Source: Deltaproteobacteria bacterium (lineage in GTDB: Bacteria; Desulfobacterota; Binatia; UBA12015). From it: a stretch of 64,000 nucleotides of DNA. The DNA is taken from NCBI GenBank assembly GCA_016874795.1, contig VGTG01000003.1, positions 1-64,000 on the forward strand. The letters run 5' to 3'. Both the position numbers and the translations under genes were made by a program. This document shows, piece after piece, positions 29,699 through 43,955 of this stretch. Position 1 is the stretch's first letter. Each line of letters starts with the position of its first letter. Under the pieces are notes generated by a model that saw only the letters and a program-made list of their open reading frames with translations, was not told the DNA's origin and searched no databases.

Positions 29699-32668
29699 CT
29701 AACGCTGCGGCAAGCGGATCGGACGGCCGTTTCGCGACGGCGGCGATCCACCCGGCCCGTCGCGCAAGCCGGCGAGCCAGCCGGAGCCACGTCCGCCCGA
29801 GCTCTCGCAGATCTCGGCGCACGAACCGGAGCCGTTGCTCGCTCCCGCGTCGCACTGCTCGTCGTGCTCGACGACGCCGTTGCCGCAGGAGACGGCCCAG
29901 AGCTCGTTCCCGTGCACGCGGTCGTTCGCGATCAGGAAGAGGCGGCCGTCTGCGGAGGCGAGCGTGTTCCCCTGGATCGCCCCGAAGATCCCCTGGAGAG
30001 TCGCCACGGGCCGTGTCCCGTCCGCGCTGCCATCGCTGACGTACAGCGCATCGCCTTCGGACGTAACTGCGGTGAAGTAGAGCCGCCCGTCGAGAGCGGT
30101 GAGGCCGGAAGTCCGCTGCACGTCGGGATCGAAGACGCGGCGCGTGCCGGCGTCGGTCCCATCCGAGCGCCAGAGAACGTCCTTCGTCGTGAAGCCGTTC
30201 GGGAAGATCTGGTCGGGCTCCTCGACGAAGAAGTAGACCACACCGTGGAGCGAGACGAAGCCGGGGTCGAAGGTGAGGGGCTGCACGAAGGACTCGATCC
30301 GACGAGTTCCGGCGGACGTGCCGTCGCTCACTCAGAGCTCGTCGGTATCGTGGGATTCAGCCCCCGCGCTCGAGAAGAGCACGCGATCCCGCGAGAGCGG
30401 AGCGATCCGGATGGCATCACCGAACGGGATCCCGTCCCCTGGGCCGAGGTCGACCACCATGAAGGTGCCCGCCTCGGTCCCGTCGCTTCGCCAGAGCTCG
30501 CGGCCGTTCACGCCGTCATCGGCGGTGAAGAAGAGCAACGAGCCCGACGCCGTCTGATGCGACTCGTACAGATCGAGCGACTCCCCTCGGCCGGGGCGGA
30601 TGTCGCGCACGAGGTGAGTTCCCGCGGCGGTCCCGTCGGTTGCCCAGAGCTCGTAGCCGTGATCGGGGTCGGCCGCGGCGAAGAAGAGGGTGTTGCCGAC
30701 GGACCCGATGATCCGCGGGTTGGAGGACGCGCCGCCCGGCACGATGTCCGCGACGAGCGTCGTCGTCGTGCCGTCGGTCTTCCAGAGCTCGGAGCCGACG
30801 CTCGTGGTCGTCCCCGGGACGACGTACACCGTGTCTCCGACGGCGGCGATCTGCGCATAGCCGTGCGTGGTCGAGCCGAAGTCGTGCACGAGCACGACTC
30901 CGGTGGCGTTTCCGTTCGTCCGCCAGAGCTCCGAGTCGCTCGAAAGGAAGAAGACGCTGCCCCGCGCCGCGGCGAGTCGCTGCTGCCCGAGAGGGTCGAA
31001 ATTGAGGGGGTCGACCTCGACGGCATCGAGACCCGGCACGATTCCCGTCCCGGCCGCCGTGCCGTCGCTCCGGTAGAGGCGCGTCGCTTCACCGAGGTCC
31101 GGATCGCCGAAGTAGAAGACCTGGTCGCCGAGAGGAACGAGCGGGCCATAGGTGTCGTAGTAGTTGAAGAAGTCGGCCGTCCCCCGGAACAGGTCGGCGA
31201 GCATCGCCGTCCCGGCGGCAGTACCGTCGGTCGCCCAGAGCTCCTGGCCGTGCTGTCGATCGTTGGCCGTGAAGAGCAGACGATTGCCGAGAGCGGTGAG
31301 ATGCTGCGGGCTGCTGCCGTGGCCGGGCACGATGTCGGCGACACGGCGCGTCCCCGCGACCGTCCCGTCGGTGACCCAGACCTCCTCGTCGTGCCCCGGC
31401 TCGCGCGCGACGAAGAACACGCGGTTGCCGACGACCGTGAGCTGACCGACGACGTGGCCGGGCGCGCAGGCCTCGATGTGGGTGTCGCGCAGCATCACCG
31501 TCCCGGCAGGCGTCCCATCCGTCACCCAAAGCTCGTGGTTCTTGTCGTAGTTCGAAGCGGAGGAGGCGACGAAGTAGAGCCGTCCGCCCACTTCGACGAG
31601 CGGATCGTGCCGGCGGGTGCCGCTCTCGGTGAGGCGGAACGTACCGGCATCGGTTCCGTCCGTCGTCCAGAGCTCCGGTGCGGCCGGCGCGAGCACGTCG
31701 AGATTCGAGACGGCGAAGACGACGCGGCCGTTGAAGACCGTGCGGGGATAGACGCCGCCGCTTCCCGGGCCGGGGAGATGATCGCGCACGAGGACGGTTC
31801 CGGCCGCCGTGCCGTCGCTCCGCCAGAGCTCGGCTCCGTGCACGCCGTCGTCCGCTTCGAAGTACACGCGACCGTCGAGCTCCACGAACGGCATCCGGGG
31901 AAATCTTCCTTGACCGGGAAGCCGCTCGGAATCGAGCGCTCCGTCGGGACCCGGGAGGATGTCGAGGGCGAGACGCGTTCCCGCGGCGGTGCCGTCGGAG
32001 ACCCAGAGCTCCGGACCGTGTGCGCCGTCGTCGGCGCGGAAGAAGATCCGATCGTCCGAAGCGGTGAGCTGGCTCGGTTCGGAGGGTTCGAGGCCGGGCC
32101 GGATGTCCGCGACGCGCCTCGTTCCGCCGCGCGTGCCGTCGGTCCGCCAGAGCTCGCGACCGTGCTCCGCATCGCCCGCGGCGAAGTAGAGGACTCCGCC
32201 CGCGACGGCGAAGTTGCGCGGATTCGACCCGATCTCGCCGCGGCGGAGGTCGCCGACGAGCCAGGTGCCTCCTGTGGTGCCGTCGCTCCGCCAGAGCTCC
32301 TCTCCGTGCCCGCCGTCGTCCGCCGAGAAGTAGAGGATGCCGTTCACGTCGAATGGCTTGGACGGGAACGAGCTCCCCGCGCCGGGGTGGATGTCCTTCA
32401 CCAGCCGCGTCCCCGCGGAGGTACCGTCGCTCGCCCAGAGCTCCTGTCCGAGCTCGGCCGTGCGGCCGACGAAGTAGACGAGGTTGCCCGAGCGCGCGAG
32501 CCGGGAAGCACCCGGCCGGTAGTCGACGTCGAGCGGCGTCGTGTTCTGGTCGGCGACGAGCTCGATCGAGCCTCGTGCGGAGGCTTCATGCGGAAGGAGA
32601 GCGCCGAGGGCGCTCGCGACGACGAGGGTGCACGCAAGGCGGGCGCTCCTCCGATGAGCGAAGGACAT
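29699..32668 (-). pseudogene. ELWxxDGT-repeat secreted protein, interrupted by one in-frame TGA
   Basis: From the ATG at 32668 (GGAG seven bases upstream) a signal peptide (residues 1-32) leads into about 14 repeats of the form ELWxxDGTxAGTxLVxDIxPG. At 30334-30332 the repeat reads EL-stop-VSDGT, and the same frame then stays open for 209 codons to 29699 with three more repeats. The stop therefore replaces a conserved TGG by TGA. The C-terminus has CGNGVVEHDEQCDAG and two further Cys, resembling the myxobacterial disulfide-rich repeat. The 778-residue upstream part alone could still be exported. Function is unknown; such propeller-like repeats are usually surface proteins. Confidence 0.8.
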
Positions 32669-33122
32669 CTTCTTTCTCCGGTCTTTCGTTTGTTGATTCG
32701 TACTGCGGTGGGACCGGCTCACGGCCGGTCGAAGAGACGGTCTACGGCGACGACCCCACACGGCCCGCCCGCGCCGGGTCGGCTCGAAAGCCCCCCGTGC
32801 GCGAGCGGGACCGTGCTTGACCCCACAGCCCCTCCTCCAACCCGCGAAATGGATGCATCCGGAGTCGGAGGGTGCGGTCGCTCGATGCTCGGCCGGCTGT
32901 CGGCGCCACGTGGCTCGCACGGGTGTGCGGAGCGTGTCGGAGCCGATCTCGCAAGGTGTTCGCGGCGATCCCGCCGCGAGCATCGAAAGGGCGCATCCTC
33001 GTCCTCGTGGTCGTCGTTGCCGTTCGAGCCGAGGGGAGCGGGAGAGAATCCGTGAAGGCGAGGCGGAGGCTCCGAGTAAGAATTTCAATAAGCTACGGGA
33101 AAATGGTGCACAAGCAACTTTC
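32669..33122. other. Non-coding region upstream of the ELWxxDGT gene
   Basis: I see no supported gene in these 454 bases. GACCGGC (32712-32718) and GCCGGTC (32724-32730) form a 7-bp stem in the leader of the ELWxxDGT transcript. An AT-richer patch at about 33075-33125 (TAAGAATTTCAATAAGCTAC) is unusual for the window and is a candidate promoter or terminator, being just after the stop of the alpha/beta hydrolase gene. Confidence 0.45.
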
Positions 33123-33806
33123 TCATTCGACGAACCTCGCCACCGCATCCGCCAGCTCGTCCAGCACCGCGTCGTCGGTGCGCCCCGACCTCTTCCGCAC
33201 GTGGAACGAGTGATCGGCGTCGTCGACGACATGGAGAGTCGCGAGCGGGCCGAGCCTGCCGCACACGTCTCCGACCAACCCGAGGTCGGCGAGCGGATCG
33301 CGCGTCCCCTGGAGGAAGAGCATCGGCACGCGCACCGAAGCGAGATGGTCGGCGCGCTCGGTCGAGGGCTTTCCTGCCGGGTGGAGAGGAAAGCCGAGGA
33401 AGACGAGGCCCGCCACGTCTTCGGGCGGCGTCGCGGCGAGGAGATGCGACGTCATGCGTCCCCCCATCGACTTCCCGCCCGCCACGAGCTTCAGGCCCGG
33501 TGCACGCTCGCGCGCGAGCTCGATCGCGGCCGCGACCGTCGCGAGGAGGACCGGGCGCGGATCGGGGCGACGCGAGCCCTGCTCGATGTACGGGAACTGG
33601 TAGCGGAGCGTCGCGATGCTCCGCTCCGCGAGCCGCTCCACGACCGCGTCGAGGAACGGCTGCCGCATGCCCGCGCCGGCGCCGTGCGCGAGGACGTACA
33701 TCGTCTTGCTGCCCGGCGGCAGCCGAAGGAGCGCGCTCACCTCGCCCGCGCGCTCGCCGATGCGAAGGCGGAGCTCCTCGTCGGAGCCGCGATCCTCTCC
33801 GGCCAC
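33123..33806 (-). CDS. Alpha/beta hydrolase, KANL3/Tex30 (dienelactone hydrolase-like) type
   Basis: The 227-residue protein starts at the GTG at 33806 with GGAGG seven bases upstream. It has YVLAHGAGAGMRQPFLDAV near residue 35, the LRYQFPYIEQGSRRPD block, nucleophile Ser in GGKSMGGRM, Asp in LQGTRDPLAD and His in DADHSFHV, so the catalytic triad is complete. The physiological substrate is not known for this family. It follows the diheme-type cytochrome gene by 17 bases and is probably cotranscribed. Confidence 0.85.
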   Translation of the reverse strand: MAGEDRGSDEELRLRIGERAGEVSALLRLPPGSKTMYVLAHGAGAGMRQPFLDAVVERLAERSIATLRYQFPYIEQGSRRPDPRPVLLATVAAAIELARERAPGLKLVAGGKSMGGRMTSHLLAATPPEDVAGLVFLGFPLHPAGKPSTERADHLASVRVPMLFLQGTRDPLADLGLVGDVCGRLGPLATLHVVDDADHSFHVRKRSGRTDDAVLDELADAVARFVE

Positions 33807-33823: not shown

Positions 33824-34714
33824 CTACTCGATCTCGTGCACGATCGGGGGGACCGTGCGGATGTACGCGGCGATCGCCTTCAGGTCCTCGGGATTCGCGT
33901 TCCCATAGCCCGGTCCGCCGGCGACGCCGTCGACGACGTCGCCCATCAGGCCCTGGACGTTGTCCATGTCCGGCAGCATGCCCATCTCGAGTACGCTCAC
34001 GATGTCGGACTCGTCCCACTTGCCGATGCCGGTCTTCGGGTCGCTCGTGATGTTGGGCACGGTCTCGCCGAGCGGTCCGTCCTCGATGCCCGCGAGGTGC
34101 ATGTCGTCGTCCGGTGCGCCGAAGCGATCGCGCGGCGTGTGGCAGTCGCCGCAGATCGCGACGTGATCCGAGAGGTAGCGCCCGCGCTCGATCCCGTCCT
34201 TGGGTGCGACGCGCGGCGTCTCCACCGAAGGAGCGAAGAGGAGACGCCAGGCGCGGAACGCGAGACGCGGAAACGGCAGGCTCACCTCGTGCGGCCGGTT
34301 CTCGCGCGCGACGGGCTTCAGCGTGCGAAGCCAGGCGATCAGGTCGCTCGCGTCCACGTCGGACATGCCGGCATAGCGATAGTAGGGCATGACCGGTGAC
34401 TCGATCGCGCCATCCGGGAGCACGCCGCGGCGGAGCGCCGCGTCGATCTCGTCGTCGCTCCACGTCCCGATGCCGGTGTCCCGATCGCCCGTGATGTTCG
34501 TCGAGTAGAAGGTGCCGAACGGGGTCGGGATCTTCTTTCCGCCTGCGCCGACGGGACCGTCGGCGATCGTGTGGCACCCGCAGCCGCCGGCGAGCGCCGC
34601 GACCTGCGCCCCGCGCGCCGGATCGCCTGCGCCGCCGAGGCGCCGCTCCGTCTGGCACCCCGCCGCGACGACCGCGGCGACGGCGGCGAGGACTCCGAAT
34701 CTCGCACCTGTCAA
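33824..34714 (-). CDS. Lipoprotein c-type cytochrome with one CXCH and one CXXCH site
   Basis: I choose the TTG at 34714, preceded by GGAGG, because it gives a 20-residue lipoprotein signal ending VVAAGC; the frame extends to 34795. Two cytochrome c modules follow. The second site is CGDCH in AICGDCHTPRD. The first is C-G-C-H (34571-34582), with only one residue between the cysteines, in a context (ALAGGCGCHT) otherwise typical of CXXCH. Axial ligand candidates are MPYYRYAGM and MLPDM. It may transfer electrons outside the inner membrane. It is divergent from the membrane protein gene. Confidence 0.82.
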   Translation of the reverse strand: MTGARFGVLAAVAAVVAAGCQTERRLGGAGDPARGAQVAALAGGCGCHTIADGPVGAGGKKIPTPFGTFYSTNITGDRDTGIGTWSDDEIDAALRRGVLPDGAIESPVMPYYRYAGMSDVDASDLIAWLRTLKPVARENRPHEVSLPFPRLAFRAWRLLFAPSVETPRVAPKDGIERGRYLSDHVAICGDCHTPRDRFGAPDDDMHLAGIEDGPLGETVPNITSDPKTGIGKWDESDIVSVLEMGMLPDMDNVQGLMGDVVDGVAGGPGYGNANPEDLKAIAAYIRTVPPIVHEIE

Positions 34715-34803
34715 AGCTACCCTCCGGACCCGGCGTGTGAGATCACGTCTCGCGGGGCCGAGCCCGGCCATAGTCTCTCGAGCGAGACGACTCAACGAGC
34801 CCG

Positions 34804-35556
34804 ATGACCTTTCACGACATCTACCGGAGCGAATGGCAGGGGACGTGGGCGCTGTGGGTCGTCCCGCTCGCGTTCCTCGGCTGGCTGCGCCTCTCGGCGA
34901 CGGCCCGGGAGCGCGCCGGGAGCGCCGCTCCGGACGTGCGCTTCGTGCACCTCTACTCGGCCGTCTTCGCGCTCGAGTCGCTCGCCGACTCGTTCGCGAC
35001 CGGCCCTCTGTCGCGCTGGCTCGGCATCTCCGGGACCGCCGCGGGAACCGCGACGATGGTCTTCTTCGTCCTCGTCGGCGACTTCCGCGTCCTTCTGCTC
35101 CTTTTCCGGCTCGGGCGCCCGGAGCGGACTGTCACTTCGGTCTCGCGCTCCGCCGCGCTATGGACGCTCCTCGTCCCGCTCACGGCGCTCTGGATGGACT
35201 TCGGGCTTCGCGCGATCTTCGGCGAGCTGCCGGGACAGACGATCTGGGTCCTGTACGAGCTGGCGTTCTTCGGGCTCGCGATGTTCCTGCGGAACGGCTG
35301 GATCCCCGCCTACGCGGCGTCGAATCCGCCCGCGCGGATCGCCTACCTGCGGGCGATCATGAGCTACGTCGCGCTCTACTACGCGCTCTGGGCGACCGCC
35401 GACGTCCTCATCCTGATCTTCGGACGCGACGAGGGATGGGGGCTCCGCATCCTGCCGAACCAGCTCTACTACGCCTTCTGGGTGCCCTTCGCGTACTTCC
35501 TCTTCTTCTCGCGAAGGTACGCCTCGCCGATCGCGTCGACCCAGACCTCGAGGTAG
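34804..35556 (+). CDS. Multi-pass membrane protein, function unknown
   Basis: The 250-residue protein has about six or seven hydrophobic helices (for example WALWVVPLAFLGWLRL, MVFFVLVGDFRVLLLLF, IWVLYELAFFGLAMFL, YYAFWVPFAYFLFF). I recognise no family motif. It is divergent from the lipoprotein cytochrome gene (90-base gap), and its last 88 bases overlap convergently with the creatininase fusion gene. A role in electron transfer is only a guess from context. Confidence 0.7.
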   Translation: MTFHDIYRSEWQGTWALWVVPLAFLGWLRLSATARERAGSAAPDVRFVHLYSAVFALESLADSFATGPLSRWLGISGTAAGTATMVFFVLVGDFRVLLLLFRLGRPERTVTSVSRSAALWTLLVPLTALWMDFGLRAIFGELPGQTIWVLYELAFFGLAMFLRNGWIPAYAASNPPARIAYLRAIMSYVALYYALWATADVLILIFGRDEGWGLRILPNQLYYAFWVPFAYFLFFSRRYASPIASTQTSR

Positions 35557-37355
35557 CGCTCCGCGCGCGCCGCTTCCGCGCCGCGGGGATCGCCGACGGT
35601 CCCGTCGGCCGCGTTCGCGCGCAAGCTTGGATAGAAGAGATCGCCCGGCGCGAGCGCCGGGTCGACGACACCCGCCGCGAAGCGCTCCGCGCGCACGCTC
35701 TCCGGCGCGAGCGCCAGCAGGATCGAGGCCTCGATCTCGCCCGCGTGCAGGCCGCCCGCGCTCGCGGCGACTCCGTGACGCTCGCCCTCGGCCTGCAGAA
35801 GCGGCAAGAGCACGCCGGGACCGGGCGCCACGATCACCTCGATCTCGCGCTTCTCGCCGTGCTTCTCGCGAAGCTTCGGCAGGATTGCGGCGAGTGCCAC
35901 GTCGTTCCCGCCGTGCGCGGAGAGAAGGAGGAGCCGCGAAACGCCGTGCGTCGCGAGCGAGCCGGTGAGATCGTCGAGGACGGCCGCGAGCGTCTCCTCC
36001 TCGAGCGAGAGCGTACCCGGAAACGCGAGATGCTCGCGCGCGCATCCGAACGGCAGCACGGGAAGCCGGATCGCCTCGGGAAAGCGCGCGCAGAACCGCT
36101 CGGCGAGCGACTCCGCGATCCACGCGTCGGTCGCGAACGGCAGATGCGGCCCGTGCTGCTCGATCGAGCCGAGCGGCAAGACGGCGGTGTCGACGGCGCC
36201 CGCGAAAAGCCGCTCGACGTCCGGCCACGCGAGCGCTTCGAGCGCGTGCCCGCTCGCCCGGAGCGCGGGGATCCTGGGCTCGCTTCGCCCGACCTCGTAG
36301 ATCGGCCCGTCCTTTCCGCGTCCCGGCCAGTCGTCCGGGTCGATGCTCCGCTCCTCGAGGAAGCGCATCACGAGCGCGTTCAGCATCGCCTCGTGCTCGA
36401 ACGTCGCCAGCGCTCCCGGGAGCTCGGCGTGAAGACGGTATAGGCGGGACTTCGTGGGCAAGATGCGCGCGAGTCGATCGAGGAGCTCCGCTTCGCTCCA
36501 CGCGTCCGGTCGCCCGAGCGCGAGGAACGTCGTCGGCTCCGCGCACGCCTGCTGGAACGCGCCGTGTGCGACCTCGATCGGATCCCACACCGGCGGCAGC
36601 GGGCGCAGCATCCCCTCGAGGACCTTGAAGCGGAGGTTCCAGACGCACTCCGCGTAGCCGCCGGTCGCGAGGAACGAGAGCGGACCGTCGAAGGCGGCGG
36701 CGTCGAGGCCCGCGCACTCGCGCCGGAGACGCTCGGGCGCTTCCGCGACGGCGCGCACGACGCGGTCCGCGATCGAGTCGAGCGCTCGCAGCGTGTCCGC
36801 ATGGCCGAGCGACGCGGCGATGCGAAGCGCCGCCGCGAGCCCGAGCATCGGACCGGTGACGCGGAGGAGAGAGCCGTACTCCTCGGCGCCGGCGAACGGG
36901 ACGATCGCGACTCCGCGCTGCTCGAGGACGCCGACGAGATCGCGCTTCTCCTGCGGGATCGCCACGGGATCGTCGGGAGCCGAAGCGGTGACGAGGACCG
37001 CGTGCGAGAAGCGATCGAGCGCGCCGAAGGCGAGGCGCGCGTTCGGCGAGAGCCCCTGCGAGAAGACGACGAGCACGTCGCCCGCGCGCACGTCGCCCGC
37101 GCGCGGGTCGCGCGGCGGCTCGCGGAGAGCGCCGAGCGGCGCGAATCGTGCCGCGATCCCGCCGTCGTCGAGGACCTGCGCGAGAAAGCGCGCATGTGCG
37201 GCCGAGCTGCCGAGTCCGGTCGTCACCACGCGAGCGCCGCGCTTCGCGCGGAAGCCGAGCTCGGGAGGCTTCGCCGCGAGGGCTTCGCGGAGGAGCTCCG
37301 GCAGAGCGGCGATGCGCTCGGCCAGCCGCCCGCGGCCGCCCTCGCCCACGCTCAC
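35469..37355 (-). CDS. SIS domain-creatininase fusion protein
   Basis: The 628-residue protein fuses two families. Residues 40-350 form a double SIS (sugar-phosphate isomerase/binding) region with VVTTGLGSSAAHARFLAQ, VVFSQGLSPNAR and a second half around FLATGGYAECVWNLRFKV. Residues 378-620 form a creatininase/formamide-hydrolase domain with metal ligands Glu399, His401 and Asp410 in GSIEQHGPHLPFATD, SAHGGN (His491) and HAGEIEAS (His537, Glu540). Its GTG start overlaps the stop of the GTP cyclohydrolase-like gene as GTGA. In that context a formamide hydrolase acting on a ribosyl-phosphate pyrimidine, as archaeal ArfB does, is my leading hypothesis. Creatinine hydrolysis or MftE-like peptidase activity are alternatives. 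Confidence 0.85.
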   Translation of the reverse strand: MSVGEGGRGRLAERIAALPELLREALAAKPPELGFRAKRGARVVTTGLGSSAAHARFLAQVLDDGGIAARFAPLGALREPPRDPRAGDVRAGDVLVVFSQGLSPNARLAFGALDRFSHAVLVTASAPDDPVAIPQEKRDLVGVLEQRGVAIVPFAGAEEYGSLLRVTGPMLGLAAALRIAASLGHADTLRALDSIADRVVRAVAEAPERLRRECAGLDAAAFDGPLSFLATGGYAECVWNLRFKVLEGMLRPLPPVWDPIEVAHGAFQQACAEPTTFLALGRPDAWSEAELLDRLARILPTKSRLYRLHAELPGALATFEHEAMLNALVMRFLEERSIDPDDWPGRGKDGPIYEVGRSEPRIPALRASGHALEALAWPDVERLFAGAVDTAVLPLGSIEQHGPHLPFATDAWIAESLAERFCARFPEAIRLPVLPFGCAREHLAFPGTLSLEEETLAAVLDDLTGSLATHGVSRLLLLSAHGGNDVALAAILPKLREKHGEKREIEVIVAPGPGVLLPLLQAEGERHGVAASAGGLHAGEIEASILLALAPESVRAERFAAGVVDPALAPGDLFYPSLRANAADGTVGDPRGAEAARAERYLEVWVDAIGEAYLREKKRKYAKGTQKA

Positions 37356-38548
37356 GCCGCCCGGTCGAGCGAAACCGGCGGAAGCACGCGCACGCCTCGC
37401 CGGGAGAGCGCGGCGCCGAGACGCCCGTCGTCCGCTTCCGACGCGAGAGGCCGCGCGGCGCGCCCACGGAGGTGCAAGCCGAGGAGCGCGATCGTCCGCT
37501 CGTCTTCACCGGGGAGCTCGCTCAGGTCCTCGCGGAATCCCGCCGGCGGAACGAACGCCGCATAGCCCGCGCCGTGCGCGACGAAGCGGCGCACCGTCTC
37601 GTCCCAGACGCGACGGCGAATCGGATCCGCGAGCGGAAAGCGCTCGAGCAACGACTCGTGCTGCACGCGCACGAGCGGCTCCGCGCCGTCGGCGGGTCCG
37701 TACGCGAGCACGACGCGGTCGACGCCGTCCTTCAGATCGAAGTACGCGTGCAGACGGAACCAGTGCGGTGCCGCGCCGCGGCCGCACTCCGGCGCGCGGC
37801 GGAGCGGCAGCAGATACGTCGCGACGTGGAGGAACGTCGGGTCCTCCGCGAGGACGTAGGGATCGAAGTACGAGACGTCCTCCGGCAGCTCCGCGACCGA
37901 GGCCGCACCGGGATCGGCGATCGCATGACCCGAGCGTGCCTTCGCGGCGATGTAGTGGCGGTTCCACGGCGAAGCGGCCGGGTGCAGCGCCGCCGTCGAG
38001 GCGATCTCGATCCCCGTCTCCTGGAGCGAGGCGAGCTTGTCCGGATTGTTCGTCAGGAGACGAAGCGGCGCGGAGACGCCGAGGTGACGGCAAAGCGGCG
38101 GAACCTCCGCGTAGCTCCGATGATCGTGGCCGAGCCCCATCCGCTCGTACGCCTCGAACGTCGTCGTCCGGTGGCCGCTCGACTGGACGATCATCCGGTC
38201 GCGCACCTTCGCGGAGAAGCCCGCGCCGCGCCCTTCCTGCATCAAGTAGAAGACCGCGCCGCGGTCCTCGCGCGAGATCGCCTCGAGCGCCGCGTCGAGC
38301 TGGTCGACGCAGTCGCAGTCGCAGCCGCCGAAGGTCTCGCTCGTGACGCACGAGGAATGGATGCGCGCGAGGAGCGGCTCGCCGCCGCGCAGATCGCCGC
38401 GGGCGAGTGCCAGGCTGTAGGTTCCCGTCGAGAGGCTCTGGCAGACGTGCAGCTGGAATCGGCCGCGCACGGTCTCGAGCGGACGCGAGCCGCGGTGAAG
38501 GAGCTGCGCGCGGACCGGAAGAGCGCCGGGCTCTTGCTCGAGCTTCAC
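37352..38548 (-). CDS. GTP cyclohydrolase II-like protein with C-terminal extension
   Basis: The GTG at 38548 (GGAAGG upstream, GTGA overlap with the cytochrome stop) gives 398 residues. The RibA-like domain (15-220) keeps the zinc cysteines Cys67, Cys78 and Cys80, with an extra Cys76, plus YLMQEGRGAGF, Asp142, Arg144 and LLTNNPDKL. The catalytic Tyr of E. coli RibA (Tyr105, in IRAYALQ) is not present: the segment reads AKVRDRMIVQ, placing Met119, or Arg118 without a gap, at that site. The C-terminal domain (250-360) resembles a degenerate second copy of the RibA N-terminal half (LVRVQHESLLERF). It may release the formylated intermediate instead of the normal product. Confidence 0.8.
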   Translation of the reverse strand: MKLEQEPGALPVRAQLLHRGSRPLETVRGRFQLHVCQSLSTGTYSLALARGDLRGGEPLLARIHSSCVTSETFGGCDCDCVDQLDAALEAISREDRGAVFYLMQEGRGAGFSAKVRDRMIVQSSGHRTTTFEAYERMGLGHDHRSYAEVPPLCRHLGVSAPLRLLTNNPDKLASLQETGIEIASTAALHPAASPWNRHYIAAKARSGHAIADPGAASVAELPEDVSYFDPYVLAEDPTFLHVATYLLPLRRAPECGRGAAPHWFRLHAYFDLKDGVDRVVLAYGPADGAEPLVRVQHESLLERFPLADPIRRRVWDETVRRFVAHGAGYAAFVPPAGFREDLSELPGEDERTIALLGLHLRGRAARPLASEADDGRLGAALSRRGVRVLPPVSLDRAA

Positions 38549-39417
38549 GACGCCTTCCCGGGATCGTGCTTCAACGCGCTCATCGCGCGGAAGTACGCCA
38601 CGAGCTGATCGAGCTGCGCATCCGAGAGGTGTGGATGCGCGGGCATCGTCGTGTAGCGGAAGCTCTGCGGGTTCCGGACGTACTCCCGGATCTGCGCCGC
38701 GGGGCGATACTCGACGATGCTCTGCGGCACGTTCAGATCCGGCCCGACCTTGCCGCCCTCGCCGTTGACGGCGTGACACGCGATGCACTCGTTCTTGAAG
38801 ATGTCGAAGCCCTTCCGTGCCGCAGAATCCGGTGCGGCGCCCGTCGGTGCGATGTGCGGGTACTGGCTCTCGAGCGCGGCGATCTCGATCGTCACGAGCT
38901 GATACGGCCAGGGATGCTCGTGCGGATCTCGCTGATCCTCCTCGCTCCACACCATGTAGTACGGGCCCGGATCGACCTGACGCCGGTCGATCGGCGGGAA
39001 GCCGGGATCGTCGCCGTGCGCGCGGTCGGCATCGGCGAGCGCGAGATACCCGCCGGGCTCGAGGAGCGCCGCGCCCGTCGAAGGCCGCACGTAGCCGTCG
39101 CGCGCGCGCAGCAGGAAGTCCTCCTTCCGGAGCTCGTCGTCCGATTCGTCGAAGCCGATCTCGAGGACGCGCGCGAGCGGGCACGCGCGATAGCGCATCG
39201 TCTTTCCGTAGTACGGGTCTTCGATCGCGACGTCGCGCGCGTCGCACGCCGTCGCGAGCTCGGCACGGTCCATCGAGCGGACGACGTTCCCGCCGCGGAC
39301 GAACTGCAGCGTCGAGTCCGCCTTGGTGGACGGGGCGGGCTCTGCCCTTGCTGCGGGCATCGAGACGCTCCCGATCACCGCCGCCTGCAGAGCGGCAGCG
39401 AGCCAGATCACCCGCAT
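38545..39417 (-). CDS. Periplasmic c-type cytochrome with N-terminal extra domain
   Basis: The 290-residue exported protein has a signal peptide ending MPAARA near residue 25. The N-terminal 160 residues hold a domain with VRGGNVVRSMDRAELATACD that resembles redox-enzyme maturation or molybdopterin-linked domains only vaguely. The C-terminal monoheme domain (about 195-285) has NECIACHAVNGEGGKVGPDL and the Met ligand in TTMPAHPHLSDAQL. It is the first gene of an operon with the GTP cyclohydrolase-like and SIS-creatininase genes, and divergent from the CbiX-like gene. Confidence 0.82.
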   Translation of the reverse strand: MRVIWLAAALQAAVIGSVSMPAARAEPAPSTKADSTLQFVRGGNVVRSMDRAELATACDARDVAIEDPYYGKTMRYRACPLARVLEIGFDESDDELRKEDFLLRARDGYVRPSTGAALLEPGGYLALADADRAHGDDPGFPPIDRRQVDPGPYYMVWSEEDQRDPHEHPWPYQLVTIEIAALESQYPHIAPTGAAPDSAARKGFDIFKNECIACHAVNGEGGKVGPDLNVPQSIVEYRPAAQIREYVRNPQSFRYTTMPAHPHLSDAQLDQLVAYFRAMSALKHDPGKAS

Positions 39418-39505: not shown

Positions 39506-40018
39506 ATGGTGCTCGAAGCGGTGATCCTCGTCGGCCATGGCGGCATTCCCTCCGACGCCCCCGGAGCGCTCGTCTCCGAGCTGAAGCGCCTCGAGGGCGA
39601 GCGCAGGGCGCGCCGCGAGCCCGAGATGAGCGCGCGCGAGGCCGAGGTCGACCGCCAGCTTCGCGAGTGGCCGCGCACGCCCACGACCGATCCGTACAAG
39701 TTCGGGCTCGAGGCGGTCGCCACCGAGCTCGGCACGCGGCTCGACGGCCGACGGCTCGTCACGGCCTACAACGAGTTCTGCGCACCGAGCGTCGAGGACG
39801 CGATCGCGGCGCTCGTCGACGAGGGCGCGACCCGGATCACGCTCTTGACGACGATGTTCACGCGCGGCGGCTCGCACGCGGAGTTCGAGATCCCCGAGAT
39901 CGTCGAATTGGCGCGCAAGCAGTACCCCGGCGTGACGCTCGAGTACGTGTGGCCGTTCGACCTCGAGCGCGTCGCAGGCTTCCTCGCGGCGCACGTTCCC
40001 CCGCCCGCGCGGCGCTGA
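39506..40018 (+). CDS. CbiX-like (sirohydrochlorin chelatase family) protein
   Basis: The 170-residue single-domain protein starts with ILVGHGGIPSDAPG, whose His is the usual metal-chelatase residue, and ends with TTMFTRGGSHAEFEIPEIV, the second conserved block. Small CbiX proteins insert Co or Fe into sirohydrochlorin or other tetrapyrroles. TACGAT nine bases before the ATG may be a -10 element. No other tetrapyrrole genes adjoin it, so the metal and substrate are unknown. Confidence 0.75.
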   Translation: MVLEAVILVGHGGIPSDAPGALVSELKRLEGERRARREPEMSAREAEVDRQLREWPRTPTTDPYKFGLEAVATELGTRLDGRRLVTAYNEFCAPSVEDAIAALVDEGATRITLLTTMFTRGGSHAEFEIPEIVELARKQYPGVTLEYVWPFDLERVAGFLAAHVPPPARR

Positions 40019-40074
40019 GCGGGCTCTCTTCTCCCTCCGCGAGCGCATGATAAGGGCCCTCGCAGGAGGACCCC

Positions 40075-41477
40075 ATGAAGGAGCTGCTCTACCGTCCGCT
40101 GACCGAAGTGACCACGCGCTTCGCCCGGAAGGAGATCTCGCCCGTCGAGCTCATGCGCACGACGCTCGAGCGCATCCGCGAGACGCAGCCGACGCTGAAC
40201 GCGTTCTGCCAGATCGGCAACGACGACGATCTCCTCGAGGCGGCGCGCGCCGCGGAGAAGAGGATCGGCGCCGGCGCAGGGCGTCCTCTCGAGGGCATCC
40301 CGCTCGGCGTGAAGGAGCTCGAGGACGCGCACGGCTTCCGCTCGACGCACGCTTCGGTCCCGTTCAAGGACGACTGGGCGGAGCACGACTCGGCGCAGGT
40401 CGAGCGCTTGAAGGCCGCGGGCGCGATCGTCGTCGGCAAGACGAACGCCCCGGAGTTCGGCTACACCGCGCTCAGCAAGAACCTCCTCTTCGGCGTGAGC
40501 CGGAGCCCGTGGAACGTCGAACGCACGCCCGGCGGGTCGAGCGGCGGCTCCTCCGCGGCGATCTCGGGCGGCGTCGTCACGCTCGCGACCGCGAGCGACG
40601 GCGGCGGGTCGTGCGCATCCCCGCTTCGTTCACGGGCTGCTTCGGGCTGAAGGTGAGCTACGGACGGATCCCGCACGGTCCCGATCCGCTCTGGATCATG
40701 GACGACACCGCGGTGCACGGTCCGCTGACGCGCACGGTCGAGGACGCGGCGCTGCACATGGACATGGTCGTCGGACCGCATCCGCTCGATCCGAACTCGC
40801 TGCCGCATCCCGGCATCTCCTACCGCGACACGCTGCGCGATCTGCCGCGCGGCCTTCGGATCGGGTACTCCCCGGATCTCGGCTACGCCGTCGTGCAGTC
40901 GGACGTCGCGACGGTGGCCGCGAAGGCGGCGCAGGCGTTCGCCGAGATGGGGCATTCCGTCGACGAGATCTCCGATGGCCCGCCCGAGCCCGGCCTCGAC
41001 TGGGGGCTCCTCGGCGCCTTCGAGATGCTCTCGCGGCTCGATCCGCTCCTGCCCGAGCGCGAAGCGGACTTCGGACGCGGCTTCATCCAGGGCGTCAAGG
41101 CGGGCGCGCGCATGACGCCGGGATTCTGGGGCGAAATGCGAAAGCGGCGCGAGGAGCTCAACCGATGGTGCGGCCGCGTGTTCTCGCAGTTCGACTTGCT
41201 CTTGACGCCGACGGTGCCCTTCGACGCGCCGCCGGCGCGCGGGCCGTTCCCGCCGGAGACCGAGGGGCGGAAGCAGCCGCGCGCGACGGTCGGGAGCTTC
41301 ACGATGCCCTTCAACATGTCGTGGCATCCCGCGGGGACGGTTCGAGCGGGGCTGTCGAAGGCCGGGCTGCCGGTGGGGCTGCAGATCGTGGCGCCGCGGC
41401 ATCGGGATGATTTGGTGCTGCAGGCGGCGTGGGCGTTCGAGCAGGCGCGGCCGTGGGGGGAGTGGCCGCGGGTGTGA
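40075..41477 (+). pseudogene. Amidase (amidase signature family), one-base frameshift
   Basis: The gene starts at ATG 40075 with GGAGG upstream. The first 179 codons contain the catalytic Lys (GIPLGVKELEDAHG) and cis-Ser region (GGSSGGSSAA). At 40611 the frame ends in nonsense (stop 40648-40650), while the frame beginning with VRIPASFTGCFGLKVSYGRI continues the family sequence to 41477. Restoring one G (TCG-GTG) joins them exactly within the nucleophile motif D-G-G-G-S-V-R-I-P. The loss falls at the catalytic serine, so the protein is inactive unless this is a sequencing error. Full length would be about 467 residues, normal for an amidase. Confidence 0.88.
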
Positions 41478-42098: not shown

Positions 42099-43955
42099 AT
42101 GGTCATGACGCGTCGAAAGCTCGCTCGGGGCAAGGCCCGCGCCCGTCGCGACGGCGCGATCACGCGCCCTGCCAGCGCCGCGAAGCGGTGGAAGCCGATC
42201 TGCGATCCCGTCACCGCGGAGATCGTCCGCGGCGCGATGGAGACCGTCGCTTTCGAGATGGCGACGCACGTCTCGCTCACCGCGACGACGCCGATCCTGA
42301 ACCAGTCGAACGAGCGGAACGCGACGATCCTCGACGGCCGCGGCTGCCTCGCCGCCCTCTCCGTCGGCATCCCGCAGTTCATGCTCTCGAGCACGCTGCC
42401 CGTCCGCTTCGCGATCGACTTCTTCGGCGAGGACGGCCTCTTCGACGGCGACGTCCTCCTGAGCAACGACCCGTACCACGGCGGCGGGCACCTGCCCGAC
42501 TACAACGTCTACGCGCCCGTGTTCCACGACGGCGAGATGGTCCTGATCGCCTCGATCCAGTGCCATCACGCCGACACCGGCGGCGGCGCCCCGGGCGGCT
42601 ACAACGTCGACGCGCCCGACATCTGGGCGGAGGGCGTGCGCTTCCCGGCGATCAAGATCTTCGAGCGCGGCGTCGAGCGGAAGGACGTCACCTACATGCT
42701 CGCGACGAACAACCGCACGCCGACGTTCCTCGGCGACCTCCGCGCGCAGATCGGCGCGGCGCAGCTCGGCGCGAAGCGGTTGAAGGAGATGTGCGACCGC
42801 CACGGCAATGCGACCGTGCGCGCCGCCGTCGACTACACGGTCGAGTACGCGAAGCGGCGCTTCCGCGCCGAGGTCGCGAAATGGCCGGACGGCGTCTACG
42901 AGTCGGACACCTACGTCGACCACGACCCGAAGGGCAACAAGGACATCCACGTCCACTGCAAGGTCACGATCAAGGGCTCGTCGATCACGATCGACTTCAC
43001 CGGCTCCGACGACCGGCCCGAGATCGAAGCCTACTCGACGTTCGGCAACACGCGCGGCTACGTCGTCGCGCAGCTCGCCGCGATGATGCCGGACGACATC
43101 CCGAAGAACGAAGGCTTCTTCGACTCGATCGACCTGATCGTCCCGGAAGGCTGCTGCCTCAATCCGCCCGAGGGACGCTCCGTCGCCGCCGGCACGCATC
43201 ATCCCGGCACCGAGGTCGGCGAGGCGATCGCCAAGGCGCTCGCGCAGGTCGTTCCCGGGAAGTGCTGCCCGCAGGTCTACAAGATGGGCATGCCAACGGT
43301 GATCTTCGGCACGAACCCGCGCACCGGGAAGGCATTCATCGACCACTCCGTCGACACCTTCGCGGCGTACTGCGGAGCGGTGCAGGGACAGGACGGCTGG
43401 GGCGCGATGAACGTGAGCTTCGGCAACCTGATCCGCGCGACCGCCGAGATCAACGAGTCGATCTTCCCCGTGCGCCAACTCTGGCGCGACTACGAGACGG
43501 ACAGCGGCGGCGCCGGAGCGTTCCGTGGCGGCTGCGGCAGCCTCTACCGGAAGCAGGTGCTGACACCCGCGACCGTCTACACGTACGTCGTCGGCAAGAA
43601 GTATCCGATGCCGGGCATCGCCGGCGGCCGCGACGGCGTGGCGAACCGCTTGATGGTTCGCGCCGGCGGCGAGAGCACGCGCGAGGTCGGCGACCTTTCC
43701 GAGCGCATCCCGCACCAGGCGGGCGAGTGCTACGAGTACTACTACGGCGGCGGCGGCGGCTGGGGCGACCCGTTCGACCGGCCCGCCGAGAAGGTGCTCG
43801 ACGACGTCCTCGACGAGTACGTCTCCGTCGAGGGCGCGCGACGGGACTACGGCGTCGTTCTCACCGGTTCGCTCGAGAACCTCACCCTCGCGATCGATCA
43901 CGCGGCGACAGAGCGGCTCCGCAGCCGACTCCGGGCCGAACGCCCCTCCGCGTAG
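42099..43955 (+). CDS. Hydantoinase B/oxoprolinase-type subunit
   Basis: The 618-residue protein belongs to the HyuB family (N-methylhydantoinase, acetone and acetophenone carboxylase subunits). It shows DPVTAEIVRGAMETVAFEM, the metal-site region LLSNDPYHGGGHLPDY, and IPKNEGFFDSIDLIVPEG. A basic leader of about 30 residues precedes the domain; a downstream start is possible. The partner HyuA-type gene follows 10 bases later. Together they would hydrolyse a cyclic amide or carboxylate a ketone with ATP; the substrate cannot be told. Confidence 0.88.
   Translation: MVMTRRKLARGKARARRDGAITRPASAAKRWKPICDPVTAEIVRGAMETVAFEMATHVSLTATTPILNQSNERNATILDGRGCLAALSVGIPQFMLSSTLPVRFAIDFFGEDGLFDGDVLLSNDPYHGGGHLPDYNVYAPVFHDGEMVLIASIQCHHADTGGGAPGGYNVDAPDIWAEGVRFPAIKIFERGVERKDVTYMLATNNRTPTFLGDLRAQIGAAQLGAKRLKEMCDRHGNATVRAAVDYTVEYAKRRFRAEVAKWPDGVYESDTYVDHDPKGNKDIHVHCKVTIKGSSITIDFTGSDDRPEIEAYSTFGNTRGYVVAQLAAMMPDDIPKNEGFFDSIDLIVPEGCCLNPPEGRSVAAGTHHPGTEVGEAIAKALAQVVPGKCCPQVYKMGMPTVIFGTNPRTGKAFIDHSVDTFAAYCGAVQGQDGWGAMNVSFGNLIRATAEINESIFPVRQLWRDYETDSGGAGAFRGGCGSLYRKQVLTPATVYTYVVGKKYPMPGIAGGRDGVANRLMVRAGGESTREVGDLSERIPHQAGECYEYYYGGGGGWGDPFDRPAEKVLDDVLDEYVSVEGARRDYGVVLTGSLENLTLAIDHAATERLRSRLRAERPSA

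Follow-up and report, generated by a model that had tools for sequence, protein, structure and literature searches.

Within the window, by which we mean the whole stretch of 64,000 nucleotides that was analysed, lies an operon that belongs to a conserved bacterial set of genes, whose predicted products are a modified enzyme for opening the ring of GTP, an isomerase of sugar phosphates and a hydrolase that takes off formyl groups. Together with the purine-scavenging company that it keeps in other genomes, this set points to an undescribed route of purine breakdown (or of pterin making) in which the five-membered ring is opened first. Our preferred interpretation, for which we judge the chances to be about even, is that the trio performs the opening steps of an imidazole-first pathway for purine nucleotides and has a purine-catabolic role. 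The logic of such a route would be a different one, and it could account for purine use by Opitutaceae and their relatives. The operon and the genes that flank it downstream are:

38545..39417, minus strand: CYT, an exported c-type cytochrome of 290 aa with an ATG start (ORF)
CYT residues ~33-180: N-terminal SUOX/PruR-like domain (model and Foldseek match to PruR)
CYT residues 211-215: the one CxxCH of a C-terminal class I cytochrome c (Pfam Cytochrom_C)
37352..38548, minus strand: RIBA, a GTP cyclohydrolase II-like protein of 398 aa with a GTG start (ORF, Pfam/NCBIfam)
37913-38488, minus strand: RIBA N domain, ~residues 21-212, catalytic type with Met119 for Tyr (Pfam/NCBIfam, alignment of 86)
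37355-37912, minus strand: RIBA C domain, ~residues 213-398, degenerate and zinc-less (domain-against-domain hhalign)
35469..37355, minus strand: SIS-creatininase fusion of 628 aa with a GTG start (ORF)
36282..37355, minus strand: SIS part, residues 1-358, a predicted double-SIS GlmS/NagB-II-like sugar-phosphate isomerase (model, Foldseek, conserved K244/E247/H264)
35469..36236, minus strand: creatininase-family part, residues 374-628, an MftE/creatininase-like amidohydrolase (Pfam, NCBIfam, PDB alignment)
34804..35556, plus strand: MEM, a membrane protein without a known family, convergent with the fusion gene and overlapping its 3' end (hydropathy, synteny)
33824..34795, minus strand: CYT2, a probable periplasmic lipoprotein cytochrome with CGCH and CGDCH motifs (motifs, synteny)

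The initial annotation had described a coupled three-gene operon with overlaps of four bases, and had expected the genes to be neighbours in related genomes as well. Both points stand. The CYT/RIBA and RIBA/fusion junctions each consist of a four-base GTGA overlap, and CYT, RIBA and SIS-creatininase recur together in at least 12 other genomes of Binatia and Myxococcota/deltaproteobacteria, mostly with the same overlaps, so that the trio is more than a chance arrangement. The single fusion protein gave no match as query in a first contig scan, but the RIBA alignment did work: run against one genome per species, it yielded at least 80 loci. The matches listed include about 65 Verrucomicrobiota loci, and also Myxococcota, deltaproteobacteria and a Candidatus Binatia record; most of those outside Verrucomicrobiota have the trio and MEM. 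In Verrucomicrobiota, RIBA has ~530 aa and is often followed by a separate SIS gene of ~350 aa. Closer to the window, the SIS part was found in 8 of 14 genomes of the same order, including the window's own, and in these eight the order CYT-RIBA-SIS/creatininase with overlapping ends holds wherever the contigs permit; most of the same-order trio loci also have the convergent MEM gene and a second cytochrome. MEM, which has no Pfam match, is syntenic in nearly all trio loci, and CYT2 is syntenic in the window's family. In this search of 14 genomes the trio was absent from three that belong to the window's own genus, and its distribution is therefore patchy. The genomes are mostly metagenome-assembled and some species names look wrong; a simple ORF caller took some antisense frames on GC-rich loci, and gene calls rest on tblastn and Pfam.

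For RIBA, the initial annotation had claimed that Cys67, Cys78, Cys80, Asp142 and Arg144 are kept and that the catalytic Tyr of RibA is replaced by Met119 or Arg118. All of these residues were found, and the alignment with E. coli RibA puts the pair Arg118/Met119 at the position of Tyr105, the replacement being conserved throughout the family (Met invariant, no Tyr, 86 of 86 members). The Met also occurs in all 13 members that came from a profile search and not from the patterns, and its invariance was not fixed by the search patterns; that of RIBA Ser66, Ser70 and Asp77 was partly built into them and is no evidence by itself. In E. coli RibA numbering, the zinc cysteines, Asp126, Arg128, Glu92, Arg94 and Lys154 are kept in all 86, and Thr149 nearly always. 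The C-terminal half of RIBA is a second, degenerate cyclohydrolase domain that has lost the zinc cysteines (profile versus profile 97.9%, E 3e-13). In the tree, a fully supported branch sets the RIBA family apart from canonical RibA; many of the inner branches are long and unsure. Since the same genome encodes a canonical, Tyr-bearing RibA-like protein (L002, with RAYALQ), the Tyr-less RIBA is an extra copy.

The alignment of 86 also has E. coli RibA Glu53 changed to Ser, Gly57 to Ser, Asp58 to Glu and Arg64 to Asp. These invariant changes could alter the choice of substrate and, like the second degenerate domain, would suit a reaction of the UTP-cyclohydrolase (URC) type or the removal of damaged or modified nucleotides, e.g. 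formamidopyrimidines. We consider such an unusual substrate improbable, given that the search patterns fix part of the invariance, that RIBA is closer to RibA (PDB 2bz0, E 1e-31) than to UTP cyclohydrolase (7eev, E 3e-6), and that the Verrucomicrobiota neighbours are purine and not pyrimidine genes. The NCBIfam scores of RIBA are 146 bits for the RibA model NF001591 versus 22 bits for NF005536 (the URC1/PRK07198 side). An assignment of RIBA to URC1 and uracil catabolism was rejected because the similarity to URC1 and UTP cyclohydrolase is weak. One Verrucomicrobiota RIBA (L031) exceeds the cut-off of the NCBI RibA model, and for this reason members from this phylum may carry a riboflavin-enzyme annotation.

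The N-terminal part of the fusion has no Pfam match, and a sequence search against the PDB gave nothing beyond E 0.2-0.4 to SIS proteins, so its structure is a predicted one. The model (pLDDT 89.6) contains two SIS folds that span the full SIS part, and Foldseek matches it over its whole length to GlmS isomerase domains and NagB-II enzymes (E 2e-12, TM ~0.67). Among 35 SIS sequences Glu247, His264 and Gly265 are invariant and Lys244 nearly so. These residues form a motif LK..E...HG in which K244, E247 and H264 are spaced by 3 and 17, where GlmS has 3 and 16; we take them to be the probable counterparts of GlmS Lys485, Glu488 and His504, three of the four catalytic residues of GlmS, the match to the fourth, Lys603, being uncertain. 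The SIS part is thus predicted to be a complete double-SIS isomerase of the GlmS/NagB-II type, and the motif and conserved residues argue for a working sugar-phosphate enzyme rather than a mere binding domain.

Fusions, neighbourhood and co-occurrence couple the cyclohydrolase, SIS and creatininase genes to one another. The cytochrome branch, to which the window belongs, has SIS and creatininase in one protein, and at two other loci (L050 and L073) SIS is joined to RIBA itself. In an evenly drawn sample of 289 Verrucomicrobiota genomes, RIBA was present in 14 and SIS in 13, and all 13 SIS genomes carry RIBA; SIS thus accompanies RIBA in 13 of 14 genomes with it and in 0 of 275 without it (chance ~1e-21, with phylogeny ignored). 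In one of these 13 genomes the two genes lie 3.7 kb from each other; in the other 12 the distance is at most ~160 bases. Eight other RIBA carriers without an adjacent SIS gene were searched genome-wide, and SIS was located elsewhere in five and not found in three. The neighbours of the unlinked SIS genes at L107-L110 were uninformative.

The creatininase part matches Pfam PF02633 (E 1.7e-60) and NCBIfam TIGR03964, the latter below that model's cut-off. The initial annotation had all creatininase-type metal ligands kept in the fusion. By PDB alignment this is correct for Glu399, His401, Asp410 and His481, but not for the position of creatininase Glu122, which is Gly483. Creatininase-family genes occur in all 11 genomes tested, often as tandem pairs, and in most of the Verrucomicrobiota loci they are located elsewhere in the genome. 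A precedent for the deformylation is BrbF, a bacterial (Rhizobiales) member of the creatininase family that deformylates exactly such a ring-opened intermediate for riboflavin (PMC9478397). RIBA and the fusion might by the same token be an alternative first step to riboflavin, with SIS incidental, and one locus (L115) does have a RibD_C protein. This we think very unlikely, as the window genome has its Tyr-bearing RibA-like gene, none of the riboflavin genes was seen near the trio, and an isomerase with apparently intact catalytic residues has no role in that pathway.

In the RibA reaction the ring of GTP is opened at C8 and formate is set free. The Tyr-less SCO2687 of Streptomyces coelicolor, studied by Spoonamore, Bandarian and co-workers, reportedly gives a formylated pyrimidine. 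RIBA may likewise open GTP, or a close purine nucleotide, and leave the formyl group on, and the creatininase domain would take it off; the initial annotation had proposed such a split of the RibA reaction, and it is plausible. Through acid-base chemistry like that of GlmS and NagB, the double-SIS part would act on the 5-phosphoribosylamine moiety, with either release of ribose or ribulose 5-phosphate (deglycation) or an Amadori ketose as the outcome. The free aminopyrimidine could then be dismantled by deaminase-, amidase-, hydantoinase- and RidA-type enzymes encoded nearby. In Binatia and Myxococcota, the periplasmic cytochrome with its pterin-protein-like domain would probably accept electrons from a strongly reducing aminopyrimidine or pterin. 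The substrate assignment in this scheme is a prediction from residue conservation and neighbours. In its full form, that of a purine counterpart of URC made up of a Tyr-less tandem GTP cyclohydrolase II, a creatininase deformylase and a GlmS-like deglycase, with a cytochrome variant in Binatia and Myxococcota, the proposal is tentative, its chances falling a little below even.

The case for breakdown comes from the neighbours. At 68 loci of the non-cytochrome branch, among the RIBA matches listed, we counted NCS2 permease (20 loci), RidA (17), TonB receptor (17), adenosine deaminase-like (12), amidase (11), DUF3891 (7) and adenine deaminase (5) genes. The permease, which matches 'NCS2 family permease' records, lies mostly directly upstream and on the same strand at the Verrucomicrobiota loci, and in 13 regions from the even Verrucomicrobiota draw NCS2 is upstream of RIBA in seven. 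Three of these 13 regions hold a cluster of creatininase, FmdA formamidase, FAH hydrolase, amidase, deaminase-like amidohydrolase, RidA and DUF3891 genes. Clusters of this kind, from creatininase through RidA, occur at L034 (Cerasicoccus maritimus), L094, L115, L118 and L121, with much of the set at L034 and L094. About half of the Verrucomicrobiota loci have none of the purine genes within ~7 kb, and no purine riboswitch was matched by Rfam upstream of 10 loci. A search of 11 genomes for two genes of the known urate route gave uricase in none and no full xdhB (xanthine dehydrogenase) above the cut-off. The larger branch lacks the cytochrome, and its surroundings of purine transport, deaminase, amidase and formamidase genes suggest purine breakdown. 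In the cytochrome branch, neither a purine permease nor a purine deaminase adjoins the trio; amidase and/or hydantoinase genes do so in several genomes, and in the window these are:

40075..41477, plus strand: amidase, its reading frame broken near 40650 (ORF); the same amidase family stands beside RIBA at L016 and in several Verrucomicrobiota
42099..43955, plus strand: hydantoinase B/caprolactamase-beta-like (Pfam); also near the trio at L013, L016, L017 and L025
43966..46068, plus strand: hydantoinase A/caprolactamase-alpha-like (Pfam); also near the trio at L016

The cytochrome, conserved in at least 12 other genomes, leads in a different direction. Its N-terminal domain is recognised by no Pfam model, but Foldseek places the model of this half (pLDDT 77, a middling confidence) closest to the periplasmic pterin-binding protein PruR (E 8e-4), followed by YedY and sulfite oxidase (E ~1e-3). 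We looked for the marks of pterin binding in PruR/SUOX proteins, namely a SUOX-type fold with (N/D)-x-Y and Trp and without the Moco cysteine. CYT has an invariant D107-G-Y109 and two invariant Trp residues, and the motif is spaced as the residues Asn/Asp102 and Tyr104 of PruR (PMC13259868), which is suggestive of a PruR-like domain for a pterin-type ligand.

The trio might therefore serve the synthesis of a pterin-type redox cofactor. Ring opening, deformylation and an Amadori step by SIS are the steps of GTP cyclohydrolase I, and a dihydropterin monophosphate could be processed and then bound as redox group by the PruR-like domain of CYT. The match to the PruR and SUOX fold, the PruR-like spacing of the motif, the apparently kept isomerase residues and the overlap of the CYT and RIBA genes in most trio genomes are all consistent with this. 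We nevertheless hold it to be unlikely. The Foldseek E is only ~1e-3, and the underlying model is middling in confidence; the Verrucomicrobiota branch, surrounded by genes for taking up and degrading purines, lacks a cytochrome of this kind; and FolE or FolE2 is present in the genomes tested for both, which leaves no gap in the ordinary pterin supply. A bypass of FolE for folate in Verrucomicrobiota was rejected, as FolE is absent there but FolE2 is present. If true, the pterin reading would mean a further way of making pterins and, to go with it, a periplasmic pterin cytochrome. We favour breakdown because of the neighbours, and a pterin-like or aminopyrimidine ligand because of the PruR-like cytochrome. 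The new GTP-derived redox cofactor of the initial annotation, used with the cytochrome, fares less well on account of the larger cytochrome-less branch among purine-breakdown genes, although the PruR-like fold keeps a pterin-type ligand possible; a dedicated redox cofactor is a possible, secondary reading.

New in this analysis are the invariance of Met119, the second, zinc-less domain of RIBA, the predicted double-SIS identity, the co-occurrence of RIBA and SIS, the purine neighbourhoods and the PruR-like half of CYT. In open papers, we found none on GTP cyclohydrolase II with creatininase and SIS, and only the BrbF paper on GTP cyclohydrolase II with creatininase alone. The trio can nonetheless be compared with several known systems. 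SCO2687 resembles RIBA in having Met for the catalytic Tyr and the rest of the RibA site kept, whereas RIBA, its activity only predicted, has a degenerate cyclohydrolase domain in addition and is coupled to SIS and creatininase. The BrbF of Sinorhizobium and Brucella and the archaeal ArfB formamide hydrolases belong to the creatininase family like the fusion part, and their deformylation is the reaction predicted for it (PMC9478397); unlike them, it is fused to a double-SIS part and lies beside a Tyr-less GTP cyclohydrolase II. The GlmS isomerase domain (3tbf) and NagB-II (8fdb) have the double-SIS fold and Lys/Glu/His motif in common with the SIS part, which shares only 10-19% identity with them in the matches and is linked to nucleotide ring-opening genes, where GlmS and NagB-II are linked to amino sugars. 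With PruR (7kou, 7rkb; PMC13259868), CYT appears to have the SUOX-type fold and the (N/D)-x-Y motif in common, and it is likewise exported, but the sequence similarity is not detectable and in CYT the domain is joined to a cytochrome c. The URC pathway with its UTP cyclohydrolase (7eev, 7ej3) shares the idea that a GTP cyclohydrolase II homologue opens a nucleotide ring for catabolism; the trio differs from it in the cyclohydrolase subfamily, in its purine rather than pyrimidine neighbours, and in the presence of SIS and creatininase.

On its downstream side, the SIS-creatininase fusion gene is convergent with the membrane protein gene MEM, and the 3' ends of the two overlap by 88 bases (window 35469-35556); comparable overlaps were found again in most of the genomes that carry the trio. 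Further genes near the trio in the window are:

39506-40018, plus strand, CbiX-like gene (sirohydrochlorin chelatase family)
40075-41477, plus strand, amidase, reading frame broken near 40650 (frames 40075-40650 and 40047-41477)
33824-34795, minus strand, CYT2, a probable periplasmic lipoprotein cytochrome
29699-33232, minus strand, long protein with many copies of an ELWxxDGTxxGT repeat, reading frame divided into two near 30332

The CbiX-like gene and the cytochrome gene CYT are divergent and separated by 88 bases. The broken amidase frame represents either a pseudogene or an assembly error. Within CYT2, the sequence LAGGCGCH is an unusual candidate heme motif, CxCH rather than CxxCH. It is conserved in all of the orthologues seen (window, L012, L013, L016, L017, L018 and L026), and in the complete ones it adjoins a normal CGDCH motif.

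Some of the metagenome records with RIBA-family genes bear the species name Klebsiella pneumoniae (L024) or Akkermansia muciniphila (L051, L074, L075, L083 and L089). Since the L024 contig is identical with one from G004, which belongs to the same family as the window, the species names of these records look wrong.

Among the Verrucomicrobiota, many genomes have tandem creatininase genes, one copy standard and the other shrunken or divergent, which could possibly form a heteromer. One cluster of RIBA, SIS, creatininase and formamidase genes, that of L115, has a gene of the RibD C-terminal family at its end. The loci concerned are:

L094:1531-3113, tandem creatininase pair
L115:11433-12820, tandem creatininase pair
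L118:14555-15912, tandem creatininase pair
L115:16491-17183, RibD C-terminal (reductase) family gene
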